Shown here: in pieces, positions 32,101 to 55,535 of the stretch
Layout: every line of letters starts with the position of its first letter
How positions within the stretch are numbered: the first letter of the stretch is position 1
Assembly (NCBI RefSeq): GCF_020382885.2
Contig: NC_058512.1
Coordinates: forward strand, 1,983,001-2,047,000
Direction: 5' to 3'
DNA length: 64,000 nt
From: Scatophagus argus
Lineage: Eukaryota > Chordata > Actinopteri > Scatophagidae
Notes under the pieces: model-generated
Databases searched by the model: none
Seen by the model: only the letters and a program-made list of their open reading frames with translations
What the model was told of the DNA's origin: nothing
Program-made: the position numbers and the translations under genes

Positions 32101-32525
32101 TTAAGTATATGTCTAATGAATGAATGAATGAATGAATAAATAAATAAAGGATTCAGTTTATCTGACAAAACTTAAAAGTGCAAAAAAGGAAATACTCGAT
32201 TAAAGCACGAGCAGGGCAGAACTGTACAGTGAACACAGTAAATGTACTTGCACTACTGCACATTTTGCTGATTATACGTCTGTACGCTTACATAAAGTTT
32301 TACATTTAGGACTTTCACTCGGAGTATTTCCAGACTGTGGTATTTCTACTTTTACTTAAACAAAGGGTATGAGTACTTCTTGCACCCAACATGTCCAGAC
32401 ATGTCCATACTCGGTATAGCTTCCTAAACATGTGTAAACATGACCACAGTACCGGAGTGTCCTTCTCCGACAGACTCGGATGTGAACAGGAAAGTCCTGC
32501 CGCTGCGGGTTCCGCTGGGGTTCAT
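29149..32525 (-). CDS. mat2al: S-adenosylmethionine synthase (methionine adenosyltransferase II alpha-like), 9 exons
   Basis: Cytosolic enzyme that makes S-adenosylmethionine from methionine and ATP. Exons: 32453-32525, 31912-31989, 31091-31213, 30892-31004, 30615-30758, 30252-30470, 29988-30170, 29335-29468, 29149-29251. Phases fit and give 389 residues (human MAT2A 395). Family motifs present: [10 protein letters not shown] (from 14), [15 protein letters not shown] (125-139), [20 protein letters not shown] (exon 7), [13 protein letters not shown] and the end [22 protein letters not shown] and FHYGTS are MAT2A-like rather than MAT1A-like, but the sequence is clearly more diverged than a normal MAT2A. 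The usual GHPDK is GHSDK (residues 22-26). The ATG at 32525-32523 is chosen because upstream codons have no family match. The gene runs divergently from vamp8. The family is certain; the choice of paralogue name is less so. Confidence 0.9.
32116..32149. repeat. (GAAT)n/(AAAT)n microsatellite in MAT intron 1
   Basis: Short tetranucleotide run, GAAT units passing into AAAT units. Confidence 0.85.
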
Positions 32526-33371
32526 CTTCGGCTCGTCGCTCGGCGCGGAAAAGCTAAACTTAACGGAATTAAAAACAGCTAAATTAAACGTGTGGATAAA
32601 ACGCCGCACTTCAAGTGAGGACGAGCTTTGGTGTCCACCGACACTGATAAGAAAAAGAAGCAATAATTAACTCAGGGGGTTGAGCCAAGATGCTTTTGCA
32701 GCAGGAAAGTCGACTGAGGACGTGCGGATTTAGCGCAGAATTATTAAAAGCGGCTGATTCAAGTTTTCACCAGTAGTTGCAAATATGTTTTTAGAAAACT
32801 ACAAACTTCTGTTCTCATGTCCTTTCCGGTGGGCCTTCTCTTTGGAGACGGATGTGTGGGCTGAAGGAGGAGTGTTTACGAGCGAAAGTCCTTCAGGCAG
32901 CGGCGAGGACAGCCTCAAGATGTCGCTGTTATGACGCAGCTTGAGGCGGATGCTTAACGATACACTTTATGTATTTACAACATTTTGCGGGAATACTTGT
33001 GTAGTACTTTCATAGTGTGGCGTTAGTACTTTTACTCAAGTATTAAGACTAAATACGCCTTCCACCACTTTGATTAGTAATATAAGGCACATTGCAGACT
33101 CATTTATGTATTTTTATTTGACTTTGAGAAATCACATGCACATACACGAAGAGGCTACATAATGAATGATTATTGCTGCTACTTGACTATTTGTAATTTA
33201 AGTACATTTTCTTGATAGTTAGAGCTTGTATAAGACTGTTCTTGAATTGAGGTGTTGTTACTTTTACTTCAGTAAAATATGTCAATACTTCCAGCACCAT
33301 ACAGTCTACATTTATTTATTCCTCTTTTCCCACACTCCACTCTACTACTCTACTTCCTTTGTATGAGTCAT

Positions 33372-41635: not shown

Positions 41636-44716
<3,081 letters not shown>

Positions 44717-45159
44717 CGCAGAGCGTGGAGGAAGGCGGGGAGGACCTCTCTGACTTCATCTCATAATGACCTGTTCCTTCTCCGCTTTGCCCCCACCCTC
44801 CCCCCCTTCCTTTCTGCAACACTGACGTTTCTGTTTATTCCACGTTGACAGTTTGAGAAGCGTAGGAGACGCTGCTGGGGCTGCAGTCAGCCACCACAAG
44901 TCCTGGGAGAAGTTCATCCATCCCGGTCTCCCAGGATGTCTTTCACGTGTATGGAAACAGATCTACGGAGCGAAACGGGGACTCAAATGGAACATGACTC
45001 TGATTGGACCGTTTGACGGACTGGGAAGGGAACAGAGAAGCTAACAGAAGCCTGAAGGAAGCTGCACATGACCTGTCATGTTACTTCACCTTTTTACCTT
45101 TTAGATGAACCGTATGTGGTCTCCAGATCTGAACCTCTCAAGTGTTACTAAAACTTCCC

Positions 45160-45191
<32 letters not shown>

Positions 45192-45565
45192 TGTAGCTGT
45201 CACCATTTTGTAAACGTTTTCCATTCATGTGCTGTTTTCGCCCTCTGCACATACACACATGTTGCAGATGTATGAAGTTTTATCAAGTGACTGAACTGTT
45301 TAACATTTTAATGTTTTAGAAAGTAGAGCCACAGTGTAGATGCACTCAGCAGCTCATTTCAGACTTTGTACGAATGTCTTAATTCAAACCCTCGCAGCTG
45401 ACTGGTGTCTGTTTAAGTGTGCCATCCTCGCTGTTCATCTGTAATGTTGGTGCTGGAAAGTTAACTTAAAGTTGCTAAATTAAGGATTTGCGTGTTAACA
45501 TAATTGCTATTATTCAGGAATGATGATCTAAAAACTTTCTTTCAATAAATGCCTTGTCTCACACA
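44717..45565 (+). other. enoph1 3' UTR
   Basis: Follows the TAA at 44714-44716. It has a TG run at about 45163-45191 and a canonical AATAAA at 45544-45549, which probably sets the end near 45565. Confidence 0.7.
45163..45191. repeat. (TG)n microsatellite
   Basis: About 14 TG units in the enoph1 3' UTR. Confidence 0.9.
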
Positions 45566-45754
45566 GACGTCTGTCTGCTCTTAGTCCAAATGTTCATGTT
45601 TGACTGTCTTAATCAACACTTGGACAAAGCTTGTACATTAAATACTTCAGACTGTAAAATAGTGAAAAGCCCATTGAACACAAGTCCTAAAATAAGAGTA
45701 AGATGTGAAGACTGAGATGACACTCTTTGTACAAATAAAACAGTTTGTTGACCC

Positions 45755-46040
45755 GCAGCAACCCCAGTCTTTATGCTAGGCTAAGCTAAGCTAACTAGCT
45801 GCTAGCAACTTTTGGACCAGAAACACGGAATCTTATATTAATTTATTTAGTTTTAAACTATATAATAGTTAAAAAATATTATTTAACTCTGTGGGGGCAG
45901 GACCAACTGTTTCAAGTCTTCATGCTAAGCTAATTCAGTTTTTAACTGTAGAATGTAATTTCACCCAAAAGCTGTTTCTCTCTTACCAGTTTTCGTGTTA
46001 AGCTAAGCTAAGTTAAGCTAAATTAAATTCAGCTAAGTAA
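45755..46040. repeat. AGCTAAGCTAA-type dispersed repeat
   Basis: Contains CCCAGTCTTTATGCTAGGCT followed by AAGCTAAGCTAACTAGCTGC, CATGCTAAGCTAATTC and TTAAGCTAAGCTAAGTTAAG. This resembles a frequent percomorph repeat ('ccagtctttatgctaagctaagctaa'). It lies between enoph1 and the first tmem150c gene. Confidence 0.55.
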
Positions 46041-46444
46041 CCTTCAATCCTCAGCTTCATCTTTCCAAAAACAGTGTTTCAGTTATTCAAAACAATGAAC
46101 AAACAAAACTCCACACATTCTGTATTGTATTTACAGTTATTGTGTACAGTTAAAAGGCGCGTTTTTAAAATATCTTAAGTCATGTCATCAATACAGCAGA
46201 CTCGCACAACCTCCCAAACCTGAAACACGTAAAAAGCTTCAAAAATAACCCAGTAATCAGGTCTGTTAAGTTAAAGAAGGAAGCCTTAACCCAGCGATAT
46301 GGTTTTCTTTGCATACCAACGAACGGGATTGTAAAGTTCTTTGGTGTTGCTTTTAATACATAACTCGGATAATAAAATACACAACGCCGGACTCGAACAT
46401 GAAGTGAGCGGCGTAGCCGACAAACATGAGACGGCGTCGCAGTC

Positions 46445-47804
46445 CTACGGCTGCATTTCCTGGCTCTCTGACAGGCTCACCGGACTCCGACAGTCCTCTG
46501 TGCACACGGTGACAAAGCGGCTGTGACGAAACTCGACGGCAAAGGTGCTGATGAAGAGCAGGAAGAACATGACCAGAGCCCACTGGCTCTGCGCTGCTTG
46601 TGCGTGCAGGTGCTGAAGCTGCAGGGAAATGTCTGCGTCAGGTGAGTTAAGGCGCGCACACGAAGGACGACAGCACGTGAAGACAGATCGCGGAAACCCG
46701 AAACTACATGCTGTGTGTGTGTGTAAACTGCAGTGAGTAAAGGATACACAGTATGAAGCAGACAGTGATGAACCCGGACAGCAGGAAGCGAACGATACCC
46801 GTCTTCCTCCCCTCGTTCTGTATGTTAACTGTCATGGTGATGTAGGACTGCGCCCAGCAGAACAACGTCCCCACGCCAAAGGTCAGCAAGGCTCCAATGT
46901 TGTGTGTAATCATGTCAGTGAAAAGCTAAACACAAACAAACACCCGGAAGTGAGTCCATCTGCAAAGTGGCGCATAAACCGTCGAATTCGTGTCGGTGTC
47001 CGTCAGTGTTTACCTGGAAGTTTCCTATGAGTGTCATCCCAAAGCAGCCAGCAGAGAAACCCAGCAGACTGCCAACGTTCAGCCAAGCTGCTGTCACTTT
47101 GGGTTTCAGCTGAAGGTATCTGAGGAAGCCGATAATGAACCCTGCAACAGAGAAGAACCAACAGAATAACACGTTTCCGTGCCCAAAAATACAGAATGCT
47201 GTCGTCCTCTGCATTTGTTGGATCTTGTACCCCAACTGTTTTAAGGACATCAGCACTGGCTGCTCCTACCCACAAACGCAGACAAGTTCATGACTTCGCT
47301 GAAGATGCAGCTGGCTTTTGGAAAGTTGCCTGCAACACTGAACATTGAAAAGGGAAACATCTCCATTAGCTCTTCTACAACAAAGACGATAAAAACAGTG
47401 ACTGTGCTTTTATTTTCTAAAAGGAAATGATGGGTGTGTACCTGATGTAGGGAGGGTAAAGGGATCCGTTCATTGACCTAAAAACAAACATTAAAAAACT
47501 TAACAAAAAGACATTCAAAAGTCATTATTTGCTGTACATAAGTTTTATTCTTACCGGTATTTTGAACCCAGAGGTGCTATTTTCCCATCTCTGAGAGCGA
47601 CAAAGTACCTGTTCAAATGCATCAAAACACAGGAGGGAGCAGAGAAACAAAGATGAAAACGCGTCACATTAGGATTTAACCGTCAAAGTGATGGTTTCAG
47701 GCGCTCAGTCCTGCCATTCAGAGGACTTACACCACCCACAGTCCAGCAGCAGTGAACGCAGAGTAGACTGGAGGCAGAAAAGCCCACAGGCTGCACTTCA
47801 ACAT
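46445..47804 (-). CDS. tmem150c: Transmembrane protein 150C, copy 1 (tandem duplicate)
   Basis: Six-pass membrane protein of the TMEM150/FRAG1/DRAM family. TMEM150C (Tentonin 3) has been reported to take part in slowly adapting mechanosensitive currents. Coding exons: 47731-47804, 47555-47608, 47442-47477, 47270-47337, 47014-47141, 46748-46925, 46445-46632, giving 241 residues. Family blocks: MLKCSLWAFLPPVYSAFTAA at the start, ISVAGNFPKASCIFSEVMN, GFLRYLQLKPKV, NIQNEGRKTGI and FAVEFRHSRFVTVC. The C-terminus ends SLSESQEMQP. A 5' UTR exon with an ACAG/GTGAGG donor lies near 48032. Exon 6 onward reads TMEM150C-like, and the position beside enoph1 and sec31a agrees. The donor of exon 46748 (CTGT/GTATCC) is weak. 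Compare copy 2. Confidence 0.9.
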
Positions 47805-48236
47805 GTCGTCCCCTCCGACAGCTGGAAGACATGAACGTGTCGAAGGTGTGATGTGAAACACGCTGGGGGAGATGTGATGTTTATTTGTCCATCCAAAGTA
47901 AACTTGGAGGACACAGGAAGTGTTTACCACCGTCCGACAGCAGCAGCAGAACACAGCAGAATGTAAACACGAAGGCTAAAAAACTGGGTAATCTCGTTGG
48001 TTTGTCAATGAAACACAGGTAGATGCCTCACCTGTCCGTCCTGTGGATAATCTCTCACTGGTTCCAGCACTCCGTGACCCCGTGATGAGCGGCGGATGTG
48101 GATACAGTACAAAAACCGCTCACGTACTTCCTCAGCGCATTTATGGTCGGAAATAAAAGTAATTCGCGATCGTAAATCGTTAACGATTCGTCATTACACG
48201 ACCGGAGGCGTGACATCGCTGTGGTGGCTTCTGAAT
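46700..48236 (-). repeat. Tandem duplication unit, copy 1 (near-identical core)
   Basis: This matches 50790-52329 at a constant offset of 4093 with only a few scattered differences, introns included. Homology continues on both sides but is much weaker (3' UTR near 46200-46440 versus 49770-49985). Confidence 0.9.
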
Positions 48237-48299
48237 TCAAGAATCATTGAGAAGTTTATCACTTCCGGTTTGAAAATTCGCCCTTCAAAACAAGAGGGC

Positions 48300-49760
48300 G
48301 GAAATGACGAATAGATGCAAACATTGTGATCTTAATGTGATACGAGAGAATTTCTAAACTCGCACTCGCAGAACTTTCGGTTCTGTCGGAGCACTCATGA
48401 GGTAGTCTTAAATGAATAGGGTTTTATGGAGCTGTAGCCCAAAAATTAAACTTTTATGGGGTTAAAAAAAAATAAAACAGTTTTCGGTACAAGAGGTGGG
48501 GAGACAACAGATTTAGTTCCATTAGATTAGATTTAATGAAATACCTTCGCGTAAGTATTTGTGGCCACAAGCACCGGTTTACGCAAGTCGCCGTATTGGT
48601 TTCACACATTAATCAAGCACCAAGTTTTTGTTTTAACTGTGATTCTAAATTCTGCTGTCGCCATCATTAGGAAAATACACAAAGATTATTTAAAGAATCT
48701 CTCCTCGGGGATAAATAAAGGAATTCTGATTCTGATATACATAAAAACCGATGGTTATGTTTACGTAAGTGAAGCTAGCCTACCGTAACGTAATGTTGCT
48801 AGTCGTAAATCTTTGACCGACCAATCAGCATACATTAGCGGAATGCTAGCACTTTATGCGCAAAACCGCCTGCCCTGTAAGAAAAACAAACAGATATTGG
48901 TATTTTTCCATTTCAGGTCTGATGTATCAACAATACTATATTTGCAAAAAACAAAATAAAATTTGGGCGTTTTTGTCCAGACGTAAGTGTAAATAACTAA
49001 TTTAGCCTCTTAGCTCCATTCACTTCCGTTCACTGAGGACGACCATGCGAGTCCCCTCCAGGTGAACTGCAGTCAATTTTGGTACAATGGCGGTAACAGG
49101 AAGTGAACAGGCTCTCCGTAGAAGGGCTGAGGTGATGCACAACAAAAAGTACCCAAAGTATTCATGCAGAATGGCTCATTTCACAGCAACGTATCTGATA
49201 TTGATATGTTACAATTCTCTATACGTTAATGTGTGCAGAACTTGAACAATGTGGGTTGAAAGGGTGGAACTAATTGTAATTAGTTTTAATACTGCTGGGT
49301 AGCTTAACTTGTAATGATTCATAATCATTTATTAGTTGATTTTACATTTTTGTATTTCTGCAGTGAAGAAACTAGTAGCCTAACTAAAGCTGTTTAAAAA
49401 ATTTGGTGAAGTAAAAAGTACAACATTTGCCTCTGGAAAAAATAAAATTATACCTCAAAAAGTATAAAGTAGAAAAAAAGGAAATATTGTTATATTCCAC
49501 TACTGTATATATGAAGTAGTGCAAGAAATATTTAGATCTTTTACTTAAGTTAAAGTATTAATACCACACCATGAAAACACTTGAGCAAAAATAAATGCAA
49601 TCTCATATTCCACCATTGAATGAGTGTCTAACTACCACTACCTTGATTTGCATTTGTGGAAGGTAAAGTACATTTAGTCATGATTCAAATTTTTGAGTCC
49701 CCCCCAGCTAATGACAACGTCAACATGGTCCTTTATTGTTGTAATGTGATCTGGTGGAGC
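48300..49760. other. Spacer between the two tmem150c genes
   Basis: No exon seen. A CTCGGGGATAAATAAAGGAA piece near 48705 is the reverse of the retroposon-like tail seen at 28408. A TACTT-rich repeat lies at about 49130-49620, and the 139-bp repeat at 48991. Confidence 0.5.
48991..49129 (+). repeat. 139-bp repeat, first copy
   Basis: Shares 139 bases with 50648-50786, with about five mismatches by eye. It begins AAATAACTAATTTAGCCTC and ends CTCTCCGTAGAAGGGCTG. It lies between the two tmem150c genes. Confidence 0.85.
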
Positions 49761-49993
49761 TGGTGGACACTCACACAACCTCCCAAACCTAAAACATGTA
49801 AAAAGCTACAAAAACAATCCAATAATCAAGTCTGTTAAGTTAAAAAAAGAAGCTTTAATTAAATTATATGATTTTCTTTGCACACAAGGGAATAGGATTG
49901 TAAACGGAGATCTTTGGTGTTGCTTTTAAAACATTACTCAGAGCAGGAAACACAACACTCGACTCTGATGAAATAAAGTGAGCTGAGACGGAG

Positions 49994-51897
49994 TCACAGC
50001 TGTTTTCGCTGACTCCTGGACCCTGCAGACAGGCTCTCTGACAGGCTCACCGGACTCCGACAGTCCTCTGTGCACACGGTGACAAAGCGGCTGTGACGAA
50101 ACTCGACGGCAAAGGTGCTGATGAAGAGCAGGAAGAACATGACCAGAGCCCACTGGCTCTGCGCCGCTTGTCCGTGCTGCTGCTGAACCTGCAGGGAAAT
50201 GTCTGCGTCAGGTGAGTTAAGGCGAGACAGACAGATCACAGAAACCTGTAGGCTCACATCCTGCTACCACAATCTGCATCAAGTTTAATGTGGGATTCAC
50301 TTCCACAGGTGGGCAGAAATAAAGTCCTTCCAGTCAAGCAACAGAAATTCATCTGCAGCTCTTCTGATGACTGATTAACTCTGATATTTTGTAGTATTTT
50401 AACTTGCTAAAGATAAGAAGTCCTGTAGTTTGATCCAGTGCTGATGAAGGCTCAGTAAGTGCTTGCTTCTGATTGGTTAAAATGTAGAAAGACCACACTT
50501 GTGTCTACACATCCACAACACACGCAGACCTTTACTTATATAGTTTGCTGAGTGGTTTACTTACATTATCTCAAATGTTTTCAGCTTTCAGGTTTTGACT
50601 GAGAGACAAAAACCAAAGAAATTCTAATAAGAGAAGAAGTTATTAGCAAATAACTCATTTAGCCTCTTAGCTCCATTCACTTCTGTTCACTGAGGACGAC
50701 CATGCAAGTCCCCTCCAGGTGAACAGCAGCCAATTTTGGTACAATGGCGGTAACAGGAAGTGAACAGGCTCTCCGTAGAAGGGCTGTGCAGAACCTACAT
50801 GTTGTGTGTGTGTGTGTAAACTGCTGTGAGTAAAGGATACACAGTATGAAGCAGACAGTGATGAACCCGGACAGCAGGAAGCGAACGATACCCGTCTTCC
50901 TCCCCTCGTTCTGTATGTTAACTGTCATGGTGATGTAGGACTGCGCCCAGCAGAACAACGTCCCCACGCCAAAGGTCAGCAAGGCTCCAATGTTGTGTGT
51001 AATCATGTCAGTGAAAAGCTAAACACAAACAAACACCCGGAAGTGAGTCCATCTGCAAAGTGGCGCATAAACCGTCGAATTCGTGTCGGTGTCCGTCAGT
51101 GTTTACCTGGAAGTTTCCTATGAGTGTCATCCCAAAGCAGCCAGCAGAGAAACCCAGCAGACTGCCAACGTTCAGCCAAGCTGCTGTCACTTTGGGTTTC
51201 AGCTGAAGGTATCTGAGGAAGCCGATAATGAACCCTGCAACAGAGAAGAACCAACAGAATAACACGTTTCCATGCCCAAAAATACAGAATGCTGTCGTCC
51301 TCTGCATTTGTTGGATCTTGTACCCCAACTGTTTTAAGGCCATCAGCACTGGCTGCTCCTACCCACAAACGCAGACAAGTTCATGACTTCGCTGAAGATG
51401 CAGCTGGCTTTTGGAAAGTTGCCTGCAACACTGAACATTGAAAAGGGAAACATCTCCATTAGCTCTTCTACAACAAAGACGATAAAAACAGTGACTGTGC
51501 TTTTATTTTCTAAAAGGAAATGATGGGTGTGTACCTGATGTAGGGAGGGTAAAGGGATCCGTTCATTGACCTAAAAACAAACATTAAAAAACTTAACAAA
51601 AAGACATTCAAAAGTCATTATTTGCTGTACATAAGTTTTATTCTTACCAGTATTTTGAACCCAGAGGTGCTATTTTCCCATCTCTGAGAGCGACAAAGTA
51701 CCTGTTCAAATGCATCAAAACACAGGAGGGAGCAGAGAAACAAAGATGAAAACGCGTCACATTAGGATTTAACCGTCAAAGTGATGGTTTCAGGCGCTCA
51801 GTCCTGCCATTCAGAGGACTTACACCACCCACAGTCCAGCAGCAGTGAACGCAGAGTAGACTGGAGGCAGAAAAGCCCACAGGCTGCACTTCAACAT
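49994..51897 (-). CDS. tmem150c: Transmembrane protein 150C, copy 2 (tandem duplicate)
   Basis: Second complete tmem150c. Exons: 51824-51897, 51648-51701, 51535-51570, 51363-51430, 51107-51234, 50841-51018, 49994-50202, giving 248 residues (human 249). Exons 1-6 of the coding region lie exactly 4093 bases from those of copy 1 and are almost identical; the one coding change I noticed there is Arg in copy 1 to Trp here at the 51648/51570 exon junction. The last exon differs: YISLQVQQQHGQAAQSQWAL and a tail SLSESLSAGSRSQRKQL. The intron before it is 638 bases against 115 in copy 1. Splice sites and the 5' UTR exon (donor near 52125) are kept, so both copies look functional. Confidence 0.9.
50648..50786 (+). 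repeat. 139-bp repeat, second copy, inside tmem150c copy 2 intron
   Basis: Partner of 48991-49129. It is part of about 520 extra bases in the last intron of copy 2 that copy 1 lacks, and it ends right where the near-identical core begins. Confidence 0.85.
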
Positions 51898-52329
51898 GTC
51901 GTCCCCTCCGACAGCTGGAAGACATGAACGTGTCGAAGGTGTGATGTGAAACACGCTGGGGGAGATGTGATGTTTATTTGTCCATCCAAAGTAAACTTGG
52001 AGGACACAGGAAGTGTTTACCACCGTCCGACAGCAGCAGCAGAACACAGCAGAATGTAAAGACGAAGGCTAAAAAACTGGGTAATCTCGTTGGTTTGTCA
52101 ATGAAACACAGGTAGATGCCTCACCTGTCCGTCCTGTGGATAATCTCTCACTGGTTCCAGCACTCCGTGACCCCGTAATGAGCGGCGGATGTGGATACAG
52201 TACAAAAACCGCTCTCGTACTTCCTCAGCGCATTTATGGTCGGAAATAAAAGTAATTCGCGATCGTAAATCGTTAACGATTCGTCATTACACGACCGGAG
52301 GCGTGACATCGCTGTGGTGGCTTCTAGAG
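50790..52329 (-). repeat. Tandem duplication unit, copy 2 (near-identical core)
   Basis: Partner of 46700-48236. It covers the first six coding exons of tmem150c, their introns, the 5' UTR exon and the start of the promoter. Confidence 0.9.
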
Positions 52330-52339
52330 GCAGATACTT

Positions 52340-53060
52340 TTCTTTTTTTTCTTTTAGGTACCAAAGAAACTGTGGCAGGTAACAGTAAAAAGATTACCAC
52401 TTCCGGTTTGAGAGTTCGTCTTTCAAAATAAGAGGGCGGAAAAGTTAAATAGAAACGAACAGGGTGGTACACAGTAAAAAGTAACAGAACTATTCATGCA
52501 GAATGGGCAATTTCATATCATTATCATATTCATATTTTAATTCTTGATGTGTACAATAATGCAGACTGACAAACAGTAAAAAACTTAGTAGTCTAACTAA
52601 CGCTGTTAATGTGGTGGCGTAAAAACGGAATACTTTAAAAATTATGAAGTAGCTTAAAAATGGAAATCCTGTACTAAAGTAGTGTAATAAATATTTTGAT
52701 CCTTTTATACTTAAGTTAAAGTACTAATACCACACGGTTCACTATCATAGACATAAGACTTCCCTATGCGTTGTGCACATGCGCCAAAGTGGTCCTGTCA
52801 TTCAAAGAGGATTACCGCAAATATGCCTGTTCAAAATTACACGTGAGGCGAATGATTGATCATCATAAAGCAATCTTACATAAAACCAAATCTTTCAAGT
52901 CACGATAACAAAACGGTTTTTTAACAGTGAAGGGTTTTTATTCAGCCAGCGAAGCGATACGTCACCCACTATTGTTTAAACTGCAGGTGTGTCTTTATTT
53001 AAACAGCAATCATTTATTTCACAAATTTAGAGGAAAACAACTGAAATAAAAACGGCAACA
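52340..53060. other. Spacer between tmem150c copy 2 and the sec31a 3' end
   Basis: No exon was seen. About 52340-52440 still shows weak homology to the DNA beside copy 1 (CACTTCCGGTTTGA, AGAGGGCGGAAA). About 52560-52740 is a TACTT-rich repeat piece. Confidence 0.45.
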
Positions 53061-53064
53061 ACAT

Positions 53065-54450
53065 CGAGCTGTAAATAAATACTATTTATTGAAAATATTG
53101 CATGTAGTCAATCTAAAACAAAGACTTGTTTTCCGTTATCACCGTAAACACTCAGAGCCTCCTTACAGTTGGAATGAAAATCAAGTACGAGCCTCCCTCC
53201 AGTTTCCCTCTGAGGTCTGATTGATTAGCAGATAATTAACATCAAATACCATTAAAGAAGACTGTGAGCGTTTGTTTGAGCATGCATACTTTCAAATTCC
53301 ATTTAAAGCACAGACTCCTCTCAAAAATTCATTGCACTCTGCTGAGCCTCGCGGTTAACACTGAAAAAATAAAACAAATAACATGAAATGAAACAACATT
53401 AAACGTCCTTAACAAGTGGGACTGCATTGCTCTGCGTTGGCATATCCCACACTCTGACAATATCTTGGTCCAATGTGCTGTGTGTAGTGACACCAGTGGT
53501 GAAAGTAAGGCAGTAAAAGCAGAAAAAGGGTTTAAAATACTAAATCTTGTACATATATATTTAAAAAAAAGAAGAAAAAACTGGCTCTCCAACTATCAGT
53601 TTAATTTTAAATGCTTGGGAAAGAAGATTCCTGGATTTAAGGTCTGACTGCTAATCTGATTTGAAACGTATCCAGATTCTGTGTGCTGCCGTTAAATCTT
53701 CTCTAAACCTTTTTTACAGTGTTCACCTGTGGCCTCATGAGACGCAAGCAATGATGCATATGCAAACATAAAGCATGACAGGATTCTACGTATTTATGGG
53801 TGATAATGCCTCTGAGCATAGTTGTAGTGCGCAAATATTTAAAGTCTATAAAGATAAACAAGCTAATATTCCTAAAATGATTGCTGTTTGCATGATCGTG
53901 CAGACGTGAGCCAAAAGCATGCTGTTATCAAGGTGGGCTTCAATCTTCAAGCTGACTACATTTAATTTGATTACCTCAATAAAATCGCCCTTAAAATTCC
54001 TGAATCTCTTGATGCCGTTTCCAATTTGTTTTCACTGCAGTCTACAAGTTGCAGTCATTTCCAGTGTGCTGAAACTCTTAACGTTGTGAAATTTCCAGTA
54101 TGACTGCTGCATATTCATAAAGTCACATACATGAAGATGAGTTGAGAACAAATGTTTGGTGTAACCTGTCTGTAGATTAGGGTGGATTAAACAGTCTCTA
54201 GCCCTTTATTTGCACAGGGCTCGGATTTCACTTTCACCACTGAGTGCGACTGATTGCATGGCTTGTGTTTGAGCTGCGTCAGAAAACATGAACGGCACGC
54301 AGAAGAATTTTCCGGATTTTCGGACACCTCAGAATTTGCGCTGTGAGTGAAATGCAGCTCCCTGTGAAACGAGCTCGACCCCTGACCAGTCACGCTCCGC
54401 CGCCCGCCACTCGAAGACACTGGGGGAGTTACTTTTTGTTTTGTGCCCAA
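53065..54450 (-). other. sec31a 3' UTR
   Basis: DNA downstream of the sec31a TGA. A minus-strand AATAAA at 53085-53090 suggests an end near 53065. No other gene features were seen. The minus frame at 54187-54450 is chance. Confidence 0.5.
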
Positions 54451-55535
54451 TCAGACGCCGAGTTTGTTGGCTTGTGTCAGCACCACCTTGAGTACGGGCA
54501 TGAACGCTGACGTCTCGCTGAAGTTGCTGTTGCTGACTATGTGGGTGTGGATGTTGAGGCCCTCCGTGTAGGATCTGGACTCTATACTCCTGGCTATGTT
54601 ATGCAGTCCTCCAACAATGGTGGGAGAAAGCTGGAGAGAAGAACAGCAGAAAGTGTTGGTGAGAAATTTGGTGAGATATTCAGCAGGATCAATCTAGTCT
54701 GAACTGATGCAACATTTTTCTTATGTCTATTGTGTGTGTGTGAAATCTGCTCATACGACTCTTTACAACATGGATTCAGCCTGGCAGACGTTGGGCAGAT
54801 TAAAGTTCATTTCTGCTTTGCATAATTCGACCCCAACTGATTTCTACCAGATTGACATGCCTGATTTATTTCCAGAACAATCAATAACCTGCGCGATAGA
54901 CGACGGGTTGGGTTTCTGGAAGTCGGAGCTTTGGGTGAGTTTGTTTTAATGTTCCTGGAGACACTCACCGTCTGCTCTCTCAGTTTGTCATAAAGCGCCT
55001 CCAGACGTTTGGTGGCGTCATCAAGCTTCCTCCTGGTTTGCTGTGGGGACATTGCGAATACAATTACACGTCTACTCAGTCACTTCAGTCAGAGGAGACG
55101 AAGCAGGATTAGCATCTCCATCAGAGTGACTCACAGGGTCCGTAGCTACAGCCAAACACTTCTGGATGAGGCCCTCAAACGTGGTCTTCAGGACCAGGTG
55201 CTCGTCGGGGATGGGCTTCTTCGTGATCTTCTCAGCAGGGATGGACTGCAGAGGCTGAAAGGGTTAAACAAGGTGAGAGGGTTTCGAGTTTAATGAGTAA
55301 ACTCACGTTTGCTCAACTTACAGGTATTTTCCTCAGGCTTCATCATAACGTGTAGACTGAATTATATGATGAAGGTCAGAACTCTTATTTTGAAGGGGTA
55401 ATGCTGGTACAGTAAAACAACACTTACTGTACAGCTTGTTGTTCTCAGTACCTGTATGAGATCTCCTGTTGGTGCTCCCGGGGCGCCCTCCATACTGGTC
55501 TTGGGCATTGCAGGGTTCACAGGTGGAGGGGAGAA

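Follow-up and report, generated by a model that had tools for sequence, protein, structure and literature searches.

Gene conversion between tandem paralogues is an ordinary and well-known process. In fishes it has been described for the anabantoid opsins lws1a and lws1b, in which synonymous divergence falls to zero over portions of the coding sequence and is higher elsewhere, a pattern explained in that study by a shared duplication with subsequent conversion (PMC11291592). For the protein family considered here, the role of TMEM150C as a channel is disputed (PMC9582506). We analyzed a 64,000-nucleotide stretch of Scatophagus argus DNA (hereafter the window), the minus strand of which holds two intact tmem150c genes arranged head to tail, as judged from spliced gene models. 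Human has a single copy of TMEM150C. No description of a tandem tmem150c pair was found among the matches listed in the open-access literature, for which titles and the beginnings of abstracts were considered.

Results

The coding sequence of copy 1 lies at 46445–47804 and that of copy 2 at 49994–51897, both on the minus strand. Spliced translation yields proteins of 241 and 248 amino acids, respectively, without internal stop codons and with GT-AG introns throughout. The two copies have seven coding exons in common, located at 47804–47731, 47608–47555, 47477–47442, 47337–47270, 47141–47014, 46925–46748, and 46632–46445 in copy 1 and at 51897–51824, 51701–51648, 51570–51535, 51430–51363, 51234–51107, 51018–50841, and 50202–49994 in copy 2. 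The initial annotation of this DNA had thus correctly proposed two complete head-to-tail genes, and the minus strand is added here. Both proteins match the Pfam family Frag1/DRAM/Sfk1 (PF10277) over residues 7–216, with E-values of 7.7e-39 (133.9 bits) for copy 1 and 1.7e-37 (129.6 bits) for copy 2 at a gathering cut-off of 30.3. No third tmem150c copy was detected in the 64-kb window by tblastn at E-values up to 1.

We assign the name TMEM150C, as opposed to TMEM150A/B or DRAM, on the basis of a presumed resemblance to the human protein and of what we take to be the gene order HNRNPDL, ENOPH1, TMEM150C, SEC31A. Among nine neighboring frames that were scanned, four gave a Pfam match: two are pieces of one S-adenosylmethionine synthetase (about 30 kb), one is an RRM protein (about 40.5 kb), and one a PAS fold (19.4–19.8 kb), while two ENOPH1-like frames, two SEC31A-like frames, and one frame at 17.8–19.4 kb gave none. 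When the copy 2 protein was compared with microbial and viral contigs, collections that are uninformative on fishes, 19 stretches and 1 stretch, respectively, fitted the pattern and none was confirmed. Rfam returned nothing at gathering scores in 44000–54500, and three weak matches to TRPM2 among solved structures (E 0.18–0.19) were taken as chance.

The main near-identical tract extends over 46733–48227 in copy 1 and 50826–52320 in copy 2 (minus strand), where the copies differ at only 6 of 1,495 columns, corresponding to an identity of 99.6%. In copy 1 it comprises upstream DNA, coding exons 1–6 together with their introns, and the very beginning of the last intron; it probably also covers a non-coding first exon, the splice sites of which were judged by eye only. 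Five of the differences fall in 957 non-coding columns and one in 538 coding columns, the latter replacing R43 of copy 1 by W43 in copy 2. Since the introns are about as identical as the exons, selection at the protein level cannot account for the main tract.

A comparison of the window with itself by BLAST gave a core of 46700–48232 versus 50791–52325 with 99.28% identity over 1,535 columns (9 mismatches, 1 gap), and 200-base windows starting between 46800 and 48000 scored 0.99–1.00 at an offset of 4093, with a steep fall outside. Identity along the unit is therefore not uniform, and the previously noted core of about 1.5 kb that is nearly identical even in introns was confirmed. Its supposedly fixed offset of 4093 bases holds except at the 46700 end, where a 2-base difference in a CA repeat reduces it to 4091. 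The 33 bases next to the tract contain three further differences in addition to this repeat difference, showing that the tract fades out just within the last intron. Around the upstream end of the tract, the observed/expected ratio of CpG rises to 1.2–1.65 at 48000–48400 (copy 1) and 1.4–1.6 at 52093–52292 (copy 2), whereas the window as a whole has a ratio of 0.59; a promoter region would be expected to show such a rise.

Older homology adjoins the tract on both sides, in blocks that are collinear in the two copies. On the 5' side, a 72-bp block at 48252–48323 in copy 1, which had been overlooked by the initial annotation, aligns with 52390–52461 in copy 2 (both minus strand) at 80.6% identity (14 of 72 positions differ), and no comparable match to it was found elsewhere in the window. 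Counted from the ends of the BLAST alignments, unmatched DNA of 19 bp in copy 1 and of 64 bp in copy 2 separates it from the tract. The next block (49131–49218 versus 52463–52544, 75%) follows directly after the 72-bp block in copy 2 and 807 bp further on in copy 1. The 5' evidence consists mainly of the 72-bp block, the blocks further out being weaker: the match of 49361–49417 to 52574–52625 was left out, and that of 49514–49569 to 52677–52735 was dropped because similar pieces occur at 32–33 kb. The latter two segments, together with 33008–33070, 32323–32385, and 33248–33297, are related pieces of a probable dispersed repeat.

On the 3' side, the block formed by the last exon and the 3' UTR (46200–46654 versus 49769–50224) aligns by BLAST at 82.6%; for the 3' UTRs, the initial annotation had given perhaps 80% by eye. 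The diverged C-terminal tail and 3' UTR within it occupy 46200–46461 in copy 1 and 49769–50031 in copy 2 (minus strand), and 72 of 255 aligned columns differ between 46460 and 46200. In the stretch 46205–46356 of the 3' UTR, which was picked for its good alignment, the copies differ at 24 of 152 columns. Divergence in this region is uneven, with 32 of 132 columns differing in 46409–46276 and 8 of 76 in 46275–46200 according to a seven-segment fit. The Jukes-Cantor distance is approximately 0.004 in the tract, compared with 0.18 in the UTR stretch and 0.23 in the 72-bp block.

The step pattern was evaluated statistically using 2,049 aligned columns with 101 differences, which were shuffled 10,000 times. 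The longest identical run of 446 columns, as well as those of 411 and 308 columns, exceeded the maximum of 252 reached in any shuffle. With the core left out (521 columns, 92 differences), a run of 133 columns compared with a maximum of 56 in 10,000 shuffles, although this procedure presumes equal constraint across sites, which is untrue for coding DNA. A comparison of non-coding tract and flank largely escapes this weakness: the 5 differences in 957 non-coding tract columns contrast with 24 in 152 columns of the 3' UTR (Fisher P = 2e-17) and with 14 in 72 columns of the 5' flank (P = 2e-13). In a change-point analysis, the BIC decreased from 813 for a single rate to 576 for three segments and 549 for four, five, or six segments; since the last three are equal, the BIC does not demand a separate segment for the identical patch in the last exon described below.

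This second identical stretch of 133 nt lies in the last coding exon at 46462–46594 in copy 1 and 50032–50164 in copy 2 (minus strand), and covers codons 193–236 without a change at approximately 29 synonymous sites. The probability of finding no synonymous change is 0.009, 0.0015, or 0.0002 if a neutral divergence of 15, 20, or 25% is assumed, and the divergence of the UTR stretch (24/152) sits near the first value, i.e., the weak end of this range. Selection could be a partial cause of the patch. The patch is separated from the main tract by the last intron, by 32 or more identical nt where intron and exon meet, and by a cluster of five substitutions within 25 nt (46595–46619 in copy 1, 50165–50189 in copy 2, minus strand). 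Four of these are nonsynonymous (codons 185, 187, 188, and 190) and one is synonymous (codon 192). The cluster precedes the last hydrophobic segment of the protein and is flanked by identical stretches of the last exon on either side. The pair is thus more mosaic than the initial annotation had it: the last intron, the tail, and the 3' UTR do differ as claimed, but most of the last coding exon is identical.

The coding tails 3' of the patch are hard to align and lead to different C-termini, SESQEMQP in copy 1 and SESLSAGSRSQRKQL in copy 2, as had been noted before. In the tail region 46410–46461 of copy 1, 33 of 48 columns differ from copy 2, which is worse than in the UTR beyond, and indels in this region appear likely from the alignment. 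When 46 nt of the copy 1 tail were aligned to 60 nt of copy 2, the match surpassed almost all of 2,000 shuffles (P = 0.003). A simple frameshift, in which one short deletion would convert the copy 2 tail into that of copy 1, was considered; two different gap placements were obtained, and no single indel emerged. The copy 2 tail is presumably similar to the human one, and if this holds, the copy 1 tail would be the derived one. The two proteins therefore differ in the tail, which had been regarded as the main site of divergence, and additionally at residue 43 (R/W) in the main tract and at residues 185, 187, 188, and 190.

With 638 bp, the last intron of copy 2 is longer than that of copy 1 (115 bp) and contains approximately 0.5 kb of unmatched DNA. 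According to the alignments and BLAST, 50225–50790 of copy 2 is almost without counterpart in copy 1. Conversely, 807 bp upstream of copy 1 (48324–49130) keep apart two 5'-flank blocks that adjoin each other in copy 2. Both stretches end in a 139-bp repeat, located at 48991–49129 in the spacer between the genes and at 50648–50786 in the last intron of copy 2. The two repeats are 96.4% identical, have the same orientation, and each is found at the right-hand end, in window coordinates, of its unmatched stretch. The intronic one stops five bases short of the BLAST core and 40 short of the defined end of the tract. No third repeat was found in the window, where the next-best match was 16 bp long, and a 30-base pattern of the repeat had no exact match in viral contigs. 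Its self-complementarity is imperfect, the best inverted match reaching 62.5% in one repeat and 67.7% in the other, and a search by eye for target-site duplications around the extra intron DNA of copy 2 gave none that was convincing. The repeat could represent either a short transposable element or an insertion templated locally.

Discussion

The key observation is an island of near identity (6/1,495) that lies between older homologous sequences in the 5' flank (14/72) and the 3' UTR (24/152) and that reaches into non-coding DNA (5/957). Such an island argues for ectopic gene conversion rather than a single duplication or a single crossover. From the comparison of two sequences of one genome we infer that, very probably, an old tandem duplication of tmem150c came first and ectopic (non-allelic) gene conversion then took place recently, in one event or several. 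The older homology found on both sides of the tract strengthens this reading, which the initial annotation had put forward as an older duplication with recent conversion of the 5' half. The second part of that description is too narrow, as the tract begins in the upstream DNA, takes in six of the seven coding exons, and is accompanied by the separate patch in the last exon.

In the proposed sequence of events, tmem150c would have been duplicated in tandem long ago, and approximately 1.5 kb of one copy, from the upstream DNA through coding exon 6, would later have been overwritten by the other copy. The separate last-exon patch, which measures 133 bp or more, would have been homogenized as well, either in the same patchy event or in another one. 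The tract ends near length differences, namely 19 versus 64 unmatched bp on the 5' side and the CA repeat followed by about 0.5 kb of extra copy 2 intron DNA on the other, which fits the idea that heterology may have limited its spread.

A single recent tandem duplication, the ends of which then diverged fast or were replaced by rearrangement, would be in keeping with a tract of 99.6% identity, and indels or unmatched DNA are indeed present in portions of the ends. It predicts, however, even divergence. The ends hold blocks that are homologous and collinear and that have diverged by substitution-type changes, with distances of 0.18 and 0.23 on the two sides; over only a few kilobases, these values amount to about 44 and 56 times the 0.004 found in the tract. 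A 133-nt identical patch also lies amid diverged pieces. We therefore consider this explanation very unlikely. Hardly more can be said for hybrid genes produced by unequal crossing-over between older copies in a single exchange: this process can act on tandem copies that share an orientation, but a single exchange leaves one boundary, and the near-identity observed here has older homology on both sides. Two exchanges would give the same pattern as conversion.

The near identity of approximately 1.5 kb exceeds the length of short reads, so that a duplicated haplotype or a repeat resolution that wrote the sequence of one copy into both has to be considered as well. Such an assembly artefact is very improbable, given that flanks, last introns, C-terminal tails, and 3' UTRs are specific to each copy, that the copies differ at six sites within the tract (nine in the BLAST core), and that the window is free of N bases.

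Under the favored history of duplication and conversion, it is conceivable, if rather unlikely, that conversion repeatedly homogenizes the membrane core while selection keeps the 25-nt stretch and the C-terminal tail different between the copies. If true, the fish would have two isoform-like genes with a common core and separate tails.

The locus provides a compact example of how gene conversion can mask the age of a tandem duplication, as most of the coding sequence makes the pair look very recent while its ends look old. The core exons are accordingly unsuitable for dating the pair, and mapping of RNA reads to the individual copies needs the last exon and the 3' UTR. The pair also represents two natural variants of TMEM150C, which are distinguished by a short stretch and by the tail.

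As in lws1a and lws1b, the similarity between the tmem150c paralogues changes stepwise along the gene (PMC11291592). Unlike that study, which draws on several species and a breakpoint analysis, the present comparison concerns a pair from one genome and a different gene family, and here the tract was traced through introns and upstream DNA. With TMEM150C (tentonin 3) of the Frag1/DRAM/Sfk1 family, both copies share the PF10277 match; they differ from it in being present as two tandem copies that diverge from each other in the tail at the C-terminus and in a short stretch preceding the last hydrophobic segment.
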